Assembly (NCBI GenBank): GCA_018221305.1
Contig: JAAOYK010000031.1
Coordinates: 1-40,114 of the forward strand
Direction of reading: 5' to 3'
From: Candidatus Pacearchaeota archaeon
Lineage (GTDB): Archaea; Nanobdellota; Nanobdellia; Pacearchaeales; GW2011-AR1
Length of the DNA: 40,114 bases
How positions within the stretch are numbered: position 1 is the stretch's first letter; every line of letters starts with the position of its first letter. Positions 29,422-39,954 of this stretch are shown piece after piece. The translations under genes were made by a program, and so were the position numbers. The notes under the pieces are model-generated. The model did not search any database. It was given only the letters and a program-made list of their open reading frames with translations, and was not told the origin of the DNA.

Positions 29422-29796
29422 ATGATAAATGCGCAAGAAGATAAAGTAATGAAAAAACTTACACGAGCCTCAGCATACCTAGTTACTTATGCGCGAGAAA
29501 TTGTCAAATATGCAACAGAAGCACAAACTGAAGAAAAAACAGACGAATTGTTTAGGGATTATGAATTAGCACTAAAGTATAGCCAAAAGTACCATGAGGC
29601 GGCTGCACAAGCCTATAAGATGGCTGCTGAGGCAAATGAAGAAGGATTAGACATAAAATATAGCATAATGCCTGAACTTGAAAGCCTAGTCAAAGGACAT
29701 ATAAAAGATATTGAAAAAGTAGTAGAAAGACGTCGTAAAAGTCTTGGATTGAAAAGTTTGCAGGCACTTAAGCGAAAAATTAAACTTCGAGGCTAA
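29422..29796 (+). CDS. Helical hypothetical protein (124 aa)
   Basis: Intact ORF; Ala/Glu/Lys-rich helical composition. Confidence 0.65.
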   Translation: MINAQEDKVMKKLTRASAYLVTYAREIVKYATEAQTEEKTDELFRDYELALKYSQKYHEAAAQAYKMAAEANEEGLDIKYSIMPELESLVKGHIKDIEKVVERRRKSLGLKSLQALKRKIKLRG

Positions 29797-32644
29797 GAAT
29801 TTTAGAAATTCCTTCCTGCATTGTTACACCGTACAAATTATTTGAAGATTCTGAGATTAATGAATCATTATGAGTAATTATCAAATATTGGCCTTCTTTC
29901 ATATATTTTTTTAACAAATATGCCAAACGTTCACTATTTCTCCTATCAAGGGCTGCATCAATTTCATCAAAAATGTAAAAGCAATAGGGTCTAAACTCTT
30001 GTACAGCAAAAATTAATGACAAAGCAACCAAAGTTTGTTCACCACCTGACAAAGAAGTTACATCAAAATATTTTCCACCCCCAACCTTTACATGGATATT
30101 TAAGCCGCCATCAAAAATTTCTTTTTTGTCTTGTGGTTCTAAAGTAACAATACCCTTTGTAGACAATTGAGAAAAGTTTCGTGAAAAAAGATCATTAACA
30201 TCTTTTAAAGTACCAACAAAAGCCTTTTTCTTTTTACGATCAATTTGTGCAATGATTGTCAAAATTTCTTCTTTTTCATGCATTAACTGATCAACTTTTT
30301 CTTTGATTTTGTCATACTCAGCTTTTATTCCATCATAAACTTCTAATGCGCGCAAATTAACATTACCAATACGCGATAATATTCCTTCAGAATTTCGTTG
30401 ACGTTCTTGCAATTTTTCTATTGGTAAAGAAATTAATTCAACTCCTACAAATTCAGAAAACTCTTGCTCAAAAGTTTCTTTACGTGCATTAACCTGGGCA
30501 CGTTCTATCATTAAATTGTTAACATCATTTTCAAAAAGGCGTTTATCATTTTGCTGGTGCAAAAGATGACTTTCAAAAAACCTTATTTTGTCCTGAAGCT
30601 CGTTCTTTTTCTCAAACATTTTTTGATATTTTCTTTTCAAAACTTCAGCATTTTCTTCTTTTTCTTCAACAATGTTTTGTTTTTCATCTAATGTATCATT
30701 AATATCTTTTAAATCATCTTCAATATCTTGCCTATCGCGTAGGATTTGTTTTATCGCAAGACGAATACGTTCTAGTTCGCGTTGTTTAGTAGTTATCTCT
30801 ATTCCAAGATTTCTTTCCTCACTACGTGCAAGTTCGTTTACTTCTAAACGCAGGTTTTCATATTGTTCCTCACTAATGTTAATCTTTGAAAACTTATTAT
30901 CTAAAGTTTTTTTCTTTGTCATTAAATTTTTCAGTTCACCTTCAAAAATCTTTATCTGCTCATTATTACGTCTTAACTGATTCTTACGATCAGTCATTGA
31001 TTGAATTTTTACTAAATCAATCTCACGTTTATTAATCTCAATTGATATCTGGCCAATAGTATCTTTTATCTCATTTAATTTTGTACTTATCTCTTTTGCC
31101 TCATTTTCAGCTTTACCGATTAATTCTTTAGCATTTTTCATATCATTATTAGACTTGTTTACAACTTCATCAATATGCTCTTTAGTCATTTTTGTTTTAC
31201 ATAACGGACAAATGTCAAGTTTTGAAACTTGCACTTTTATTTTTTCAGCCTCGCCAATTATCTGATTTTGTATGGCTTCAATCTTTCCTTTTTCTATACT
31301 TACATTAGAAAACTGTTCTCTTGAATTTTTTTGTTTTTCAAGCTCTTGTTTTAATCTTATCAACGCGTCTTGATGCTGTTCAAGTGTCTCTTTAATATGC
31401 ACTTCTTTTTCAGTAGACTCTATTTGTTCCAAAACAAAATTTGATTCATTTTTAAGTGTTTGAATTTGTCTTTTTTTATCCTCTAATTGAGAATTAACAG
31501 TAGACAAATTAAACTTAATAAGATAAAATTTACGTTTAAGCTCGTCTAACTCTTCTAACTTCTTTTTTTTGTCACTCAAATCTTTTTTAGTATTTTTTCC
31601 TTTTTCTGTCTTCATTTCTTCAATCTCTTTAGTTGACGCTCCTATATCATTCTCAAGTGCACTTTTTCTTCTATCAAGCTCGTTTAACTGATTTTCAAAA
31701 TTTTCTTTACGAGCGATCATGCCAGCAATTTCTTGTTTCAAGGTAGAAATTTGGGCAATTAATGTATCTTGTTCAAGCCCTGAAGATTTTTGGATAGATT
31801 GCGAGATCTGGTTAACTTTTTCTGTTAGCGTATTAATCTCGTTTTTAGTTTTTTGGATCTGATACTCTTTTTTTTCAATTTCTTTTTTCTTTGTATCAGC
31901 ATGGCCAAGGATAATTTTTAATTCTTTAGCTTTTTCTTGAACCTTTCTGTCAATGATTGATGCTTTGCACCGTTTAACAGTTGACTCTAACTTTTTAAAA
32001 CGAAGAGCTTGCTCACGCTCGTTTTCCAGATTACGCATATAATTAGTACGTTCTCGAAGAACTGCGTTTATTTGTTTTAGTCTTGCATCTGTTCTGTCTA
32101 ACTCTTTTAAAGATTTTTGTTTACGCATCTCATACACAGAAATACCTGCAACTTCTTCTATGACTTTGCGTCTATCTTCTGCTGGCATTTTAACAAAACG
32201 TTCAATCTCTCCCTGCAAGATAATATTAAATCCGTGAGGATCAATACCTGCCTGAGACAAAAGTTCAAGAACTTCTTGACGTGTACGTGTTTCTTTATTA
32301 ATCTTGTACACACTTTGCCCATTCTTTTTAACAACTCTTCTAATTAATATTTCATCTTTATCAAGGGCAAAGGTTTTATTTTTGTTATCAAAAGTTATCT
32401 CAACAGATGCTTCATTGCTTCCTTTATACTGCTTATTTCCTGAAAAGATTAAATGAGAAGCTTTTGCTGCACGCATTGATTTTATTGACAAGCGGCCCAG
32501 AACAAAACATAGAGCGTCTGTGACATTAGATTTACCAGACCCGTTTGGACCTACTATTACATTAACATGTCTGTCCATATGCATCACTGTTTCTCTGGCA
32601 AAACTTTTGAAACCCTTCATCACCAGTTTTTTTACATAAGTCAT
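29780..32644 (-). CDS. smc: SMC-family chromosome segregation ATPase with central zinc-hook-like CPLC motif
   Basis: KGFKSF...VNVIVGPNGSGKSNVTDALCFVLG, NIILQGEIERFVKMPAEDRRKVIEEVAGI, LSGGEQTLVALSLIFAVQ, FYIFDEIDAALD; CPLC at residues 479-482 of 954; no hinge domain recognised. Confidence 0.95.
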   Translation of the reverse strand: MTYVKKLVMKGFKSFARETVMHMDRHVNVIVGPNGSGKSNVTDALCFVLGRLSIKSMRAAKASHLIFSGNKQYKGSNEASVEITFDNKNKTFALDKDEILIRRVVKKNGQSVYKINKETRTRQEVLELLSQAGIDPHGFNIILQGEIERFVKMPAEDRRKVIEEVAGISVYEMRKQKSLKELDRTDARLKQINAVLRERTNYMRNLENEREQALRFKKLESTVKRCKASIIDRKVQEKAKELKIILGHADTKKKEIEKKEYQIQKTKNEINTLTEKVNQISQSIQKSSGLEQDTLIAQISTLKQEIAGMIARKENFENQLNELDRRKSALENDIGASTKEIEEMKTEKGKNTKKDLSDKKKKLEELDELKRKFYLIKFNLSTVNSQLEDKKRQIQTLKNESNFVLEQIESTEKEVHIKETLEQHQDALIRLKQELEKQKNSREQFSNVSIEKGKIEAIQNQIIGEAEKIKVQVSKLDICPLCKTKMTKEHIDEVVNKSNNDMKNAKELIGKAENEAKEISTKLNEIKDTIGQISIEINKREIDLVKIQSMTDRKNQLRRNNEQIKIFEGELKNLMTKKKTLDNKFSKINISEEQYENLRLEVNELARSEERNLGIEITTKQRELERIRLAIKQILRDRQDIEDDLKDINDTLDEKQNIVEEKEENAEVLKRKYQKMFEKKNELQDKIRFFESHLLHQQNDKRLFENDVNNLMIERAQVNARKETFEQEFSEFVGVELISLPIEKLQERQRNSEGILSRIGNVNLRALEVYDGIKAEYDKIKEKVDQLMHEKEEILTIIAQIDRKKKKAFVGTLKDVNDLFSRNFSQLSTKGIVTLEPQDKKEIFDGGLNIHVKVGGGKYFDVTSLSGGEQTLVALSLIFAVQEFRPYCFYIFDEIDAALDRRNSERLAYLLKKYMKEGQYLIITHNDSLISESSNNLYGVTMQEGISKILSLEV

Positions 32645-32691: not shown

Positions 32692-33072
32692 TTAGTCCCA
32701 GTATCCTGTTCCTTTCCAATATTCTTGTGTGAGCCACTCTTTTCCATGTTCTGAGATTATCTTTGAAGAAGCCTTAATAAGCCCGTGGCGATCATCTGTT
32801 AATTTTTCTAATTCAGAATCATTTAATCTTTTTAAGGATTCATTACCTTTAACAAGGCGGTCTTCTGTGATTGCAAAAACACCCATTTCAGTATATTCAT
32901 ACCCTGGAAGTCCGCTCCCAAATGCATCCATTGTTAGATAAAAATGTTCTGCACTCCCTTTTTCTCCTACCTCTATATCTTCGAGAGGAATTACATAAGA
33001 ATTTTGTTCAAATTTTACTCGTCGTAAAAAAATAGTTCCCTTAGGAATTATATCTTTTTTAATTGCTACCAT
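32692..33072 (-). CDS. Hypothetical protein (126 aa)
   Basis: Intact ORF between smc and rnhB. Confidence 0.65.
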   Translation of the reverse strand: MVAIKKDIIPKGTIFLRRVKFEQNSYVIPLEDIEVGEKGSAEHFYLTMDAFGSGLPGYEYTEMGVFAITEDRLVKGNESLKRLNDSELEKLTDDRHGLIKASSKIISEHGKEWLTQEYWKGTGYWD

Positions 33073-33126: not shown

Positions 33127-33777
33127 TTAGAAGTCTTCTATACTTTTCTGACCAACAGGCCGGGCATACCTTTGATAAGTACTCCATGATTTTCTGAAAA
33201 TTTCTGGACACTTGTCCCAATTCTCTTTAACAAACGCTATAGTTTTTGGATCAGCAGGATAACCAGACCCAATAAGACCATATTTTTCTTTAATTTTCTC
33301 AACTTGACGTTCTCGTTCAACTTTTGCCAAAATCGATGCAGCTGCTGAAGTTTTATAATTAACATCTGCTTTATGTTCAACAATTAATTCAATTTCTTTA
33401 TTTGTTACAAGATTTTGTAGATATTCTTTATACGCTTTCTCATTAATGCTTGGACAGTCAATGATTGCAACATCTGGGTTTAGCTTGTTAATAATTTCTG
33501 CTTGTTTATGCGCTTCTAACCAGTTTAAGTTTAGTTCTCCTGAAAAGATTGCAGCGTCTATTACTTCTGGTTCTACGACCAAAACTTCATATTTTACACC
33601 TGGAATAGAACGTATATCTTTGTCAAGTTTTACGCGCTGCTTTTGCCATAAGGTTTTAGAGTCGCGTGCTTTTTCTATTAAAGGTATATCTTCTTTGTCA
33701 AGCATTACGCCTGCAATAACCATTGGACCAATTACTGGGCCTCTTCCTGCTTCGTCAATTCCTAGAACTTTTGTCAT
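33127..33777 (-). CDS. rnhB: Ribonuclease HII
   Basis: VLGIDEAGRGPVIGPMVIAG; AAASILAKVERERQVEKI; GSGYPADPKT. Confidence 0.96.
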   Translation of the reverse strand: MTKVLGIDEAGRGPVIGPMVIAGVMLDKEDIPLIEKARDSKTLWQKQRVKLDKDIRSIPGVKYEVLVVEPEVIDAAIFSGELNLNWLEAHKQAEIINKLNPDVAIIDCPSINEKAYKEYLQNLVTNKEIELIVEHKADVNYKTSAAASILAKVERERQVEKIKEKYGLIGSGYPADPKTIAFVKENWDKCPEIFRKSWSTYQRYARPVGQKSIEDF

Positions 33778-34209: not shown

Positions 34210-37200
34210 TTATTTCTTTCCACCCGTCTTCCTAAACCCAAAAAACCAAACAATCCCTGCAATAATAACTATAACAACAACAATCACTCCAATCAACCAA
34301 TAAAACCATGTATTCATGCCTCCACTAGCAAATCCACCTTCCTCTCCGATCCTATCACCCTCATCTTGACCTTCACCACTTTCTGCAGAATCCACACCAT
34401 CACCTTCACCTGCAGAAACCACCTCAATCGCTTCATTAATCTCTGTCAAGGTCAAATTAGCCTTCACCCCTGCAATAGAATTCAACTTAACCAATAAATC
34501 ATAAAAAGAATTATTATTCAGGTCAAACTTTTTTTCCTGCCCAACACTAATAAGAAAATTAATTGGATCTGAAGTCAAAGTAATATTAACAATACTATCA
34601 ATGATAGACTTAACCTCCAAACTATGATTTTCGCCTTTAGAACTAAAACTAACCCGGTCACCTTTAGCTAATTGTGCAGCATACCCAGACTTAATCTCTT
34701 CCTTACTGGCAGTATACGTCATGGCTACAACTCCTCCTCCACCACCGCTACTCCCCCCAGGATCGTTATTAACATCCACTGGTGTTTCACCTGCTGAGTA
34801 AACAGAAAAACTTGTTACATTAAACACAAAATTCCCAGAACCATAACTAACTTCCACGCAATCCGAACAAACTGCCCCATCTTTTAATACTCTAGGATTA
34901 GTATAAGTCAGATTATAGAGTGAAAGTGTCGCAGGTTCATTAAGTTCAGGCAATACACTACTGTTTAAAGAGATCCTGTTAAAACTTATATTAACATGCT
35001 CACTAATATTAACAAAAGTACTATTTAATGTGACAGAATCAAAACTCATCTTGCCACTGCTTGTCTGTTCGATTACTATTGGAATATTAACAAAATCAGT
35101 CAGATTAGTAAAATTTGTTGTGATTCCATCAAACTCAGAATAATTAATCACTGGCCTGAAAACATTTAATGTTATATTATTGCTTGCCACACTAATAACA
35201 TTAGTTCCATTAAAAGTGATATACCGTGTCCCGTTCCAACCAACATCTGGCACTAACGTAACAATAGAAGTTGTCTGATTTATATCAACACTTATATTCA
35301 AAACAGTAGTATTAGTATAAGTCAAACTATCACTGTCTATGTCTGTAAAATACTGACTCAAATTCAAAGTTAAATTCGAATTCATGACCCAGCTCTTATT
35401 AGAAATCACTGAAAATTCTGGAACAGAATTTAATATTATCAAGATGGAAGAGTTGTACCAATTGCTCCAGTCAGTTCCATCATTTACTCTTACAGAAAAT
35501 GTCCAGTTTTCTCCTTTTGTAGTATACCCCGACGTTACCGACGACAAATTCGCTAAACCCACAACCTCTGTATCATTCCTATACCATTTTGTTTCATTTA
35601 GTGTTTCCACTGAAGACTCAACATCATTAAACACATAAACTCCGGTTAATGTCTCGTTCGTCTTATTCAAACCCAAAGCAGTAAGATTCACGCCTGATAC
35701 CCAAGGAACATCATTAACAGCATTCACACTAACAATAAAACTATCATTTGCCCAAGCACTCCCATCTGTCACGTTAACAATAATTGTTGAAGACCCAGAC
35801 GCATTAGCCAAAGGAGTTGAGCAATTCAAATAATAAGCAACACTAACATTATAAACAATACAGTTGATCAATGAAGAATTACTTTGGCTTTGCACATAAA
35901 ATGTTAAATTGTCCAAGTCAGTATCAGACCCATACAATGACAAATTATAAAATTTGTCAGCAGGCGCCACATCTTCATTAGTTGAATTGTCAGGAATCCC
36001 AGACAATACAGGTAAAGAATTTGCTACAACAAAACTTTGCAAACCTCCAATCTGCAGATTGCCTGCAGAATCATTTGCATAATATCTCCAGCTCACATTA
36101 ACATCCTTAGAATAATTCCCAGAATTTAACACAAACGAATAAACATCTCCAGAAGAACTCAATGAAGAATAATTAACAAAACTCCCGCTTGAATTAACAG
36201 AGATCCATACATCATCTAATCCCACCCCAGTATCACTTACTGTCGCGTTCAGAGTAACACTTGTGTTCGTATAAACAGTTGTCAAACTTTTATTCTCTGA
36301 CCCTACGCTCGGAGCAGTAGTATCAATAGTAAAAGCCCTAACACTCGAGTTCTCCACATTAGTGACATTATCTCCTGCCTGTATCTTCCATAAATATGTC
36401 CCATCCCCTTCACCACTTAAATTAATTGTAAAGATATAATTAGTATCATTAGCCCCAGAACTGTTTGTCTCATTAAGGTGCCACCCTCCGCCCCAATTCC
36501 CCCACAAACTCACACTACTCAGATTCAAGTTATCAGCAACTGTCACGTTAAACATAATATTATACGAGCTAAGGTTAGCTCCAGCAACAGGAGAATTAAG
36601 CGTCACAACCGGCCTATCAAGGTCTGCCAGCGTCGTAAAACTCTGTGCCGCTGACCAATTACCAGCTTCAAGGCCTGTATCAATTGTCTGCACACTCCAA
36701 TAATATGTAGTTGAAGGCGAAAGTCTGTCAACCTTCAAAGTAAAATTCTTCCGCTGCATCATGTTACCAAAGTAGCCGAATGCAGTTCCACCGCGACTTG
36801 CATCCCCTGCACCGCCATAAATACCACTGATAATACTATGGTTATTTGCACTAGTCCCTAGCTTAAGATTGTAATATAATCCTGTAGAAATTGTCTCATT
36901 ATCCGACCCATTAAGCCATCCTAAGGCTATTTCTCTGTTATTATAAGCATATGAAAAACTTGCTGGAGGGGTTGGTGCAACATTAGGTGTTGTTATGTTA
37001 TTTATGTAGACTTTCTGAGATTTTATTACAACCAAATCCAAATCTCCATCATTATCAATATCCCCCCAGATTGCTGAGCCATCTCTCTCACCTGTTAAAT
37101 TAGATTCTGCGGTTGTATCTCTTGCAAAAGCAGACCCGTTATTTCCTATAATATGGATTTCATCCCCTCCCAAATTAACTAAATCTAAATATCCATTATT

Positions 37201-39954
37201 ACTATAATCTCCTAACATCATGGATCCCCAAATTAAATTAGACAAATCTAAATTCCATGAGGATACATATGTCCACATACTTTCAACACTTTCATTATTT
37301 ATGCCTACATTAAAGCTACCCCCACTAACACAATAATCAAAATCACCATCATTATCTATATCCCCCCATGCAACATTGGCTTCATCACGACGAGTAGTAG
37401 ACCAGTTACTATTCTCAATTAAACTTGTTCCATTATTAATATAACTTTTGGAAGAATCCTCTCCGATTATATTTAAATCTAAATCACCATCATTATCTAA
37501 GTCAACTAAGCCTGGTGAAGATTTACCCTCGCTTGTAATTTCTTGGCTCAAGGGAATATTCCCAATAAATGTAGTACCATTATATAAGTAAGTAATATTT
37601 AATCCGTTGCTTCCACTCTTTCCTGGGAAAACCAAATCTAAGTCACCATCGTTATCCATATCTCCAAATGCAACAGAATATGAGCCAGCTTCTTCTGGCA
37701 CAATAGTTTCTTGCCACGTTGAGTTTTCAACAAAACTCGTTCCATTATTTGTATAAAGAGTACTATTAGATATACTACTCAATACTAAATCTAAATCTCC
37801 ATCATTATCTATATCTCCAAATGCAAGTGAAGCTCTCCTAATATTCAACAAATTTTGCTCCCATGTAGCATTCTCAACAAAGGAAGTCCCATTATTTATC
37901 CAAACATAACTTTTATCTGCAACATTGCACACCCCAATTCCAGAATCACACCCTATACTGACCATATCTAAATCCCCATCATTATCTATATCTCCAAATA
38001 TTGCTCCGTTATGAGAATTAGACCCCGTCAAATTTCCCTGCCACTGCGGGCTTTCAATTAACCCCACACTTATACCAATAGAAAAACTTCTAGTTTCACT
38101 TGTCTGACAATTAGTAGCATTATCACAAGCTACTATGTACCACTGAGATGTTCCTTGTACAGGAACATATTCAGAAAAGATATAATCCGTATTATTTATT
38201 CCAGATGAATTTATTTGTTTCTGACTCCATCCATTACCCCAATTCCCCCACAAACTTACATTACTCAGATTAAGATTATCAGCAACTGTCACATTAAACA
38301 CAACATTGTACGAACTAAGATTCCCTCCAACCACAGGAGAATTAAGCGTCACAATAGGCCTATTCAAGTCTGCCAGCGTCGTAAAACTCTGCGCCGCTGA
38401 CCAATTACCTGCCTCAAGACCAGTATCAATACTCTGCACGCTCCAATAATACGTAGTTGAAGGCGAAAGCCTATCAACTTTCAAAGTAAAATTCTTACGC
38501 TGCATCATGTTACCGAAGTAGCCGAATGCTGTTCCGCCGGCATCATTGCTAGAACTTAATCCCCCATAAATTCCACTAATAATTGAATGATTATTTGCAA
38601 TAGTTCCTAGCTTTAAATTGTAATAAAGTCCAGTAGAAATTGTTTCATTATCTGATCCATTAAGCCATCCTAAGGCTATTTCCCTATTGTTATAAGCATA
38701 TGAAAAACTTGCTGGAGGAGTTGGTGCATTGTTAGGTGTTGTTATGTTGTTAATGTAAATTTTTGCTTCTTGACCACCAAGTTGAGCGACTCCAATTTCT
38801 ATTAAATCTAGATCAAAATCGTTATCCAAATCCCCCCATACCAGAGACCCTGCTTGTTTCGAAGTTATGTTTACTTGCGCAGTGGAATTTTCAATAAGAG
38901 ATGTACCATCATTCCTATAAATCTTAGTGTAGGGAGTTCCACCACATTGACCATTTATTACTAAATCTAAATAACCATCATTATCATAATCTCCAAAAAC
39001 ACTAAATCCATAAAATAGTCCAATTATACTTCCTTCCCAATCAGTATTCTGCACAAAAATTTCTTCAGATTGAGTTCCATTATTTTCATAAAACCAACGC
39101 CCAGTAGTTACGCATGCTCCTTTTTCTCCCATAAGAAAGAGATCAAGATCATTATCATTATCTATATCTCCCCATGCTGTAGATGCATGATCCATAGCGA
39201 CTATATTCTCTGTTGAATTGAATATAAAACTAGTACCATTGTTCATGTATACTTTAGTAGAAAATAATCCAATTACAGATAAATCTAAGTCATTATCGTT
39301 ATCCATGTCAACAAGTGCAGTAGATACCCTGCTTGCGGCAGTTATATTGCTATCCCAAGAAGAATTTCCAACAAAAGAAGTGCCGTTATTGATGTATACC
39401 ACCCTAGAAGTACCTGAAAATTTAACAACTACTAAATCCAAATCGCCATCTAAATCTAAGTCTCCTAATGCTATTGGACCGTTGGCTTCTTCATTAGATG
39501 GATTCAGATCTCTTTGCCAATCAATATTTTCTGTAAGAGAAGTACCATTATTAAGATAAATTTTAGTTGTCTGACTCGAATCGCTACCGCCAATAACTAA
39601 ATCTAAATAACCATCATTATTAACATCACCAAATGCAATTGAGGGCCATAAGTTGCCAGATAAATTTTGTTGCCAATTTTGATTTTCAATGAGACTAGTG
39701 CCATTATTAAGATAAATTTTTGGTTTTTCATATGCGGTACATGTTTGAACGTTACCGCTACTGCATCCTGCCCAGGCTAAATCTAAATCACCATCATTAT
39801 CAACATCTCCAAGGGCCGTGACACTATGTAATGTATAACTAAGATTTGATTCCCATGTTGAATCTTCAATCAGCCCTACATCACTTGCACTAATTAAATT
39901 TATCAAAACTAAAGATACAACTATAGCTATGACCAACAATCTTCTCTTTTTCAT
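34210..39954 (-). CDS. Giant surface protein: two FG-GAP/VCBS blocks, FN3-like modules, Ig/cadherin-like region, C-terminal TM
   Basis: 14 copies of a D-x-D-x-D/N-x-D-L-D-L-like motif in two sets of seven; signal peptide MKKRRLLVIAIVVSLVLINLISA; C-terminal WFYWLIGVIVVVIVIIAGIVWFFGF + KTGGKK; many N-x-S/T sequons. Confidence 0.92.
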   Translation of the reverse strand: MKKRRLLVIAIVVSLVLINLISASDVGLIEDSTWESNLSYTLHSVTALGDVDNDGDLDLAWAGCSSGNVQTCTAYEKPKIYLNNGTSLIENQNWQQNLSGNLWPSIAFGDVNNDGYLDLVIGGSDSSQTTKIYLNNGTSLTENIDWQRDLNPSNEEANGPIALGDLDLDGDLDLVVVKFSGTSRVVYINNGTSFVGNSSWDSNITAASRVSTALVDMDNDNDLDLSVIGLFSTKVYMNNGTSFIFNSTENIVAMDHASTAWGDIDNDNDLDLFLMGEKGACVTTGRWFYENNGTQSEEIFVQNTDWEGSIIGLFYGFSVFGDYDNDGYLDLVINGQCGGTPYTKIYRNDGTSLIENSTAQVNITSKQAGSLVWGDLDNDFDLDLIEIGVAQLGGQEAKIYINNITTPNNAPTPPASFSYAYNNREIALGWLNGSDNETISTGLYYNLKLGTIANNHSIISGIYGGLSSSNDAGGTAFGYFGNMMQRKNFTLKVDRLSPSTTYYWSVQSIDTGLEAGNWSAAQSFTTLADLNRPIVTLNSPVVGGNLSSYNVVFNVTVADNLNLSNVSLWGNWGNGWSQKQINSSGINNTDYIFSEYVPVQGTSQWYIVACDNATNCQTSETRSFSIGISVGLIESPQWQGNLTGSNSHNGAIFGDIDNDGDLDMVSIGCDSGIGVCNVADKSYVWINNGTSFVENATWEQNLLNIRRASLAFGDIDNDGDLDLVLSSISNSTLYTNNGTSFVENSTWQETIVPEEAGSYSVAFGDMDNDGDLDLVFPGKSGSNGLNITYLYNGTTFIGNIPLSQEITSEGKSSPGLVDLDNDGDLDLNIIGEDSSKSYINNGTSLIENSNWSTTRRDEANVAWGDIDNDGDFDYCVSGGSFNVGINNESVESMWTYVSSWNLDLSNLIWGSMMLGDYSNNGYLDLVNLGGDEIHIIGNNGSAFARDTTAESNLTGERDGSAIWGDIDNDGDLDLVVIKSQKVYINNITTPNVAPTPPASFSYAYNNREIALGWLNGSDNETISTGLYYNLKLGTSANNHSIISGIYGGAGDASRGGTAFGYFGNMMQRKNFTLKVDRLSPSTTYYWSVQTIDTGLEAGNWSAAQSFTTLADLDRPVVTLNSPVAGANLSSYNIMFNVTVADNLNLSSVSLWGNWGGGWHLNETNSSGANDTNYIFTINLSGEGDGTYLWKIQAGDNVTNVENSSVRAFTIDTTAPSVGSENKSLTTVYTNTSVTLNATVSDTGVGLDDVWISVNSSGSFVNYSSLSSSGDVYSFVLNSGNYSKDVNVSWRYYANDSAGNLQIGGLQSFVVANSLPVLSGIPDNSTNEDVAPADKFYNLSLYGSDTDLDNLTFYVQSQSNSSLINCIVYNVSVAYYLNCSTPLANASGSSTIIVNVTDGSAWANDSFIVSVNAVNDVPWVSGVNLTALGLNKTNETLTGVYVFNDVESSVETLNETKWYRNDTEVVGLANLSSVTSGYTTKGENWTFSVRVNDGTDWSNWYNSSILIILNSVPEFSVISNKSWVMNSNLTLNLSQYFTDIDSDSLTYTNTTVLNISVDINQTTSIVTLVPDVGWNGTRYITFNGTNVISVASNNITLNVFRPVINYSEFDGITTNFTNLTDFVNIPIVIEQTSSGKMSFDSVTLNSTFVNISEHVNISFNRISLNSSVLPELNEPATLSLYNLTYTNPRVLKDGAVCSDCVEVSYGSGNFVFNVTSFSVYSAGETPVDVNNDPGGSSGGGGGVVAMTYTASKEEIKSGYAAQLAKGDRVSFSSKGENHSLEVKSIIDSIVNITLTSDPINFLISVGQEKKFDLNNNSFYDLLVKLNSIAGVKANLTLTEINEAIEVVSAGEGDGVDSAESGEGQDEGDRIGEEGGFASGGMNTWFYWLIGVIVVVIVIIAGIVWFFGFRKTGGKK
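36491..36990 (-). repeat. Internal direct repeat, copy 2 of FN3-like/linker module within giant surface gene
   Basis: Near-identical to 38237-38736 (e.g. gtctgccagcgtcgtaaaactctg; ttgctggaggNgttggtgca); start points 1746 nt apart. Confidence 0.8.
38237..38736 (-). repeat. Internal direct repeat, copy 1 of FN3-like/linker module within giant surface gene
   Basis: See 36491-36990; minor in-frame length difference in the GGLSSSNDAGGTAF / GGAGDASRGGTAF segment. Confidence 0.8.

Follow-up and report, generated by a model that had tools for sequence, protein, structure and literature searches.

A gene of a Candidatus Pacearchaeota archaeon encodes what is very probably the SMC subunit of an Smc–ScpAB condensin whose hinge has been replaced by a Rad50-type zinc hook, a reading for which there is no biochemistry. 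The group carrying this hook-SMC, which is large and made up of tiny uncultured archaea, is inferred to be the GTDB order Pacearchaeales. Inferred, too, are zinc binding and hook-to-hook dimerisation (both by homology only), the complex with ScpA, the condensin role, chromosome folding and which way the domain was transferred.

The window, i.e. the whole stretch of DNA that was analysed (40,114 nucleotides), holds the gene at 29780..32644 on the minus strand, an ATG-initiated ORF of 954 residues that scores 500.7 bits with the SMC_prok_A model and has full-length orthologues of 60–69% identity within the same genus. Both the extent of this ORF and the SMC-type head motifs that the first-pass annotation had claimed for it (KGFKSF, VGPNGSGKSN, the EEVAGI segment and SGGEQ) were found exactly as described. 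All parts of the protein are given here by residue and by minus-strand coordinates. The ATPase head has its N-terminal half at residues 1–167 (32144..32644), supported by matches to solved Smc heads and by AlphaFold; this half contains the Walker A motif GPNGSGKS (residues 32–39; 32528..32551), of which G32, P33, N34, G35, G37, K38 and S39 are invariant in alignment A1. The C-terminal half (residues 796–954; 29783..30259) matches solved Smc C-terminal heads, has invariant signature residues and includes the LSGGE signature and the DEIDAALD Walker B motif. Between the two halves, AlphaFold helices define an N-terminal coiled-coil arm (residues 168–475; 31220..32143) and a C-terminal one (residues 488–795; 30260..31183), each 308 residues long. 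The arm tip, where a hinge would be expected in an SMC, is formed by the zinc-hook loop (residues 476–487; 31184..31219), assigned from AlphaFold and from the register of Rad50 hooks, with the putative zinc ligands in a CPLC motif (residues 479–482; 31199..31210) whose C, P and C are invariant.

That no hinge can be read in this protein was already part of the first-pass annotation, with detection of a hinge fold in the central region named there as a refuting result, and the claim withstood every search made for one. Pfam SMC_hinge (PF06470) was found neither in the 954-residue protein nor anywhere in its own genome, which is 61% complete, and the AlphaFold model contains no globular hinge. 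A hinge query taken from a relative of the same class, which detects 23 of 23 canonical SMCs, returned only noise against the hook-SMCs and against the hookless SMCs of the order described below. Across the class, SMC_hinge occurs in 200 of 281 sampled genomes, every one of them outside this order, and none of the at least 62 order members in that sample is among the matches.

In place of the hinge, C479-P-L-C482 sits at the exact midpoint of the protein, with 308 residues of arm on either side when measured from fixed head anchors. The same value is the median for both arms over 104 measured hook loci (the head boundaries used for these lengths differ from those of PMC5344682). In the AlphaFold model—a monomer built from 28 sequences and of moderate confidence (pLDDT 78, pTM 0.42)—helices 421–475 and 488–587 enclose a loop of 12 residues that is non-helical and bears two strand marks; the arms break near 344–354 and 587–614. 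Model and arm lengths together thus bear out the central CxxC, flanked by coiled coil on both sides, that had been read from the DNA alone. Conservation singles out the same spot: over residues 315–709, an alignment of the protein with 27 relatives (38–69% identical to it) has C479, P480 and C482 as its only invariant columns. Likewise, each of the best 80 matches in the named genome collection, mostly MAGs of Candidatus Pacearchaeota and Nanoarchaeota, has a single CxxC, which is always central and reads CPLC, CPVC, CPIC or CPTC. Judged from these alignments, conservation of the CxxC in the hook-SMCs is far beyond chance.

The hook also resembles those of Rad50 in more than its cysteines. Pfam Rad50_zn_hook matches residues 477–507, so that the HMM check proposed in the first-pass annotation did hit the hook, yet the score of 16.5 bits stays under the curated cut-off of 24.3; a similar hook in a relative (L057) clears it with 28.2 bits. 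The consensus of the SMC hooks, [IV]SK[LM]D.CPLCK[ST]K[IV]T.EHI..I, parallels that of the Rad50 hooks of the class, I..L[DN].CPLCKQ.V[ST].EHK..I. An HMM of the SMC hook in which C, P and C were masked still matched 36 of 37 Rad50s in the exact hook register (median 18.4 bits), as opposed to −1.3 bits on canonical SMCs. With the hook masked, the flanking coil matches Rad50 no better than background, so that the traceable part is confined to the hook plus about 25 residues next to it. These sequence comparisons lead us to conclude that an SMC has acquired a hook domain of the Rad50 type. Its donor lineage is unresolved, and SMC hooks score better with Rad50s outside the order than with those inside. 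The most likely source is a Rad50-type gene, and the transfer would date to an early stage of this archaeal order. A rad50 homologue lies near 4 of the 80 named hook-SMC loci and an mre11 homologue near one; rad50 beside a hook-SMC is a possible setting for hook exchange. In genome G161 (locus L152, 1820–6810), rad50 directly follows the hook-SMC gene downstream on the same strand.

In Rad50, one CxxC per chain amounts to half a zinc site, and two chains share one zinc ion. A hook-SMC with one CxxC per chain would therefore be expected to share its zinc between two chains, joining the arm tips. According to the mechanism proposed here, the two antiparallel coiled-coil arms would end in the CPLC hook instead of the SMC hinge, and each of two chains would give two cysteines to one shared Zn2+. 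The ATP-driven heads would bind the kleisin ScpA together with ScpB, and the ring or rod closed in this way could load on the chromosome and fold DNA like an ordinary condensin. The first-pass annotation had likewise read a chimera with Zn-mediated hook dimerisation into the gene; the combination of an SMC with a Rad50-type hook is supported, and zinc binding and dimerisation are still inference only. That a Rad50 hook can stand in for the hinge has been demonstrated experimentally with Bacillus subtilis Smc, which sustained normal growth when its hinge was swapped for the Rad50 hook of Pyrococcus furiosus (PMC5344682), and the reverse swap is functional in fission yeast (PMC6969161).

A different possibility is that the protein keeps the condensin role while its CPLC loop is no dimerisation device at all, but a single-chain metal site, a redox switch or a contact for a third protein, with dimerisation provided by heads and kleisin or by the arms. 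This we regard as improbable. Two ligands per chain need a second chain to complete a zinc site if Rad50 chemistry applies, the motif occupies the exact symmetric apex and is invariant wherever a hook is present, and its sequence matches hooks of Rad50 that dimerise. What keeps the idea alive are relatives that have lost or never had a hook and retain intact heads, in which a known tip interface may be dispensable.

Eight such hookless SMCs of 781–809 residues were found in the order (L041–L048, from genomes G045, G048, G036, G050, G044, G047, G041 and G037), belonging to families f6 and f7 and to part of f4; both hinge and CxxC are absent from all eight. Their existence means that the hook is not indispensable across the order. 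An AlphaFold model of one of them (8 sequences, pLDDT 71) has arm breaks at about 350–360 and 445–456 and a short apical helical hairpin; going by this model, the hookless SMCs seem to be without the distal arm as well as the hook, and they are possibly condensins that have no known apical dimerisation domain of any kind. The trees do not unite them in one group and require three or more switches between the hook and the hookless state. Because the deepest branch is a hookless pair, the trees do not decide between an ancestral hook with several later losses and a hookless ancestor with a single gain.

The head of the protein is, as far as its sequence can tell, of the SMC type and related to SMC rather than to Rad50. 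Whole-protein scores reach 501 bits with SMC_prok_A and 496 with SMC_prok_B, against at most 81 bits with archaeal Rad50 models and 108 with the model of the ASRP family, and Pfam SMC_N matches with 197 bits. Both SMC scores lie under the curated cut-offs of TIGR02168/TIGR02169 (496 versus 567 and 501 versus 729 bits), a shortfall that fits the missing hinge and the shorter arms; on a hinge-bearing relative from the class, the same two models score 783 and 598 bits. A sequence search matched residues 1–258 to solved Smc heads with an E value of 7e-97. Among solved structures, archaeal and bacterial Smc heads come closest in sequence; in fold, the closest are the condensin SMC of yeast and a Smc head of Pyrococcus yayanosii that includes the coiled-coil joint. 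A tree built from the heads of 59 proteins separates SMC from Rad50 by a branch of about 3.7 changes per site (support 100). A careful second tree, of 44 SMCs, gathers the proteins of the order into one clade (100/99), next to those SMCs of the class that carry a hinge. A head phylogeny inside Rad50 had been named by the first-pass annotation as a result that would refute it; the protein falls among the SMCs, outside Rad50.

These data also bear on membership of the ASRP family (coalescin ClsN, Sph) or of the arcadin-4 proteins, which has in its favour that ASRPs are archaeal and carry a zinc hook (PMC9389158) and that the ASRP model does return its 108 bits. Such an assignment is very hard to sustain: SMC models score about five times higher, the cut-off of the ASRP model is 300, and a hinge-bearing SMC of the class and the organism's own Rad50 obtain 77 and 105 bits with it, so that 108 bits reflect background relatedness. 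In addition, the heads nest with those of hinge-bearing class SMCs—albeit in trees that included no ASRP sequence (ClsN/Sph)—and ScpA and ScpB co-occur with the hook-SMC. An ASRP identity was excluded on the grounds of this score, which is far under 300.

The partner genes fit a condensin. The protein's own genome encodes a ScpA of 348 residues (contig C37, 46 bits), and of the 51 genomes of the order among the relatives, 42 have a ScpA and 47 a ScpB; in the protein's own genome, which is 61% complete, no ScpB turned up. The first-pass annotation was right that neither scpA nor scpB adjoins the SMC gene, ScpA being encoded elsewhere in the genome, and a neighbourhood search of the 80 named loci, whose queries did not include ScpB, showed no ScpA homologue close to the SMC gene. 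The genome search for a kleisin, Rad50/Mre11 and a second canonical SMC, also proposed at that stage, yielded ScpA and a separate Rad50 of 683 residues with its own CPTC hook, encoded beside Mre11 (contig C27), and no second, canonical SMC in what is available of the 61% complete genome. Its other SMC_N matches are the Rad50 by Mre11, a recF and two further ATPase ORFs. Genomes with the hook-SMC also encode ScpA, ScpB and a distinct Rad50, which points to a kleisin-type condensin rather than a renamed Rad50. With regard to the assembly itself, contig C58 (L060) is a dnaN–recF contig of bacterial type and probably a contamination.

There is next to no prospect that the protein is instead a repair ATPase, Rad50 itself or similar to it, whose sequence has drifted towards SMC and which acts with Mre11 on DNA ends: its hook is homologous to Rad50 hooks, it and its arms are shorter than the class SMCs, and rad50 or mre11 lies near the gene in the few relatives mentioned, yet the gap between 501 and 81 bits, the fully supported split of the tree, the true Rad50 adjoining Mre11 in the same genome and the Rad50-sized hook ORFs found alongside the hook-SMC in most order genomes speak against it, and the head trees together with the separate Rad50–Mre11 pair were taken to exclude it.

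Turning to distribution, a condensin of hook-for-hinge design that is natural and order-wide, alongside sub-lineages in which hook and distal arm were lost or are primarily absent, is the likely overall picture, if less assured than the nature of the protein itself. In a sample of 200 genomes from the order, 191 match the 954-residue protein, although the hook was not read in every one. An artefact or a truncated SMC was excluded as an explanation, since most of about 190 genomes of the order contain a comparable intact ORF. When a hook profile was run over samples of the class and the phylum, ORFs of hook-SMC size appeared in this order only; hook-profile ORFs outside the order were mostly of 680–850 residues and were taken as Rad50, which all 16 of those fetched proved to be.

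Some of these SMC genes are interrupted. In two hook-SMCs (L056 and L057), an intein of about 520 residues with Intein_splicing and LAGLIDADG domains is inserted at the P-loop of Walker A, and such an intein probably resides in other SMCs of the order and class, whose ORFs are about 1490–1690 residues long; three ORFs of about 1493 residues (L076, L137 and L138) probably bear it.

Set against known systems, the hook-SMC shares with Smc–ScpAB (TIGR02168/TIGR02169) the head motifs, the long antiparallel arms, the co-occurrence of ScpA and ScpB and a single SMC found per genome, but differs in having no hinge and a zinc hook at its apex. It is also smaller, with 954 residues compared to about 1100–1180 in prokaryotic SMCs and arms of 308 compared to about 359 in the class. 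With Rad50/SbcC (PF04423), it has in common the apical CPxC hook and its flanks (I..L[DN].CPLCK..[VI][TS].EH...I); unlike these proteins, it has SMC heads, lacks an adjacent mre11 in nearly all loci and coexists with a separate Rad50. ASRPs (ClsN, Sph; NF045487) are likewise archaeal members of the SMC superfamily in which a hook replaces the hinge; true SMC-type heads, the low ASRP score and the presence of ScpA/ScpB set the hook-SMC apart.

Hook-bearing archaeal relatives of SMC are thus already known in the form of ASRPs such as coalescin and Sph (PMC9389158), which are a head family separate from the hook-SMC. An open-access search, which did not extend to subscription papers and preprints, returned no description of a kleisin-type SMC in which a zinc hook occurs naturally and no literature on a Pacearchaeota or DPANN SMC with either hinge or hook. 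As far as the searchable open-access literature goes, the exchange of hinge for hook in an SMC had previously been seen in engineered proteins only. The closest counterpart is B. subtilis Smc(Zh) (PMC5344682), which also combines SMC heads and arms with a Rad50 hook in the place of the hinge; it is a laboratory construct, functional in vivo, whereas the archaeal architecture it matches is natural and, on the present reading, order-wide.

That the one SMC detected in an entire archaeal order lacks a hinge is evidence from nature that a minimal joint can be enough, in line with the engineered B. subtilis chimera. The hinge may have duties beyond joining the arms, as a DNA gate, in DNA binding or within the extrusion motor, and this question is open. 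Should the SMCs of the hookless sister lineages still form a condensin, these lineages would offer a test of the need for any apical joint. More generally, apical domains appear exchangeable between families of the SMC superfamily in the course of evolution.

Finally, the genes around the hook-SMC deserve brief mention. Upstream on the same strand lies rnhB (33127..33777, minus), encoding RNase HII (PF01351, 135.5 bits), and an RNase HII homologue recurs in 61 of the 80 named loci within the fetched stretch of up to 3 kb on either side of the SMC gene, making it a conserved neighbour outside the SMC complex. Two small flanking ORFs (29422–29796 on the plus and 32692–33072 on the minus strand) have no Pfam match, and no counterpart of either was detected beside the SMC gene at the 80 named loci. 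Further along the window, 34210–39954 on the minus strand encodes a protein of 1914 residues, probably a large one of the cell surface, in which FG-GAP repeats are numerous and Ig-like stretches occur.
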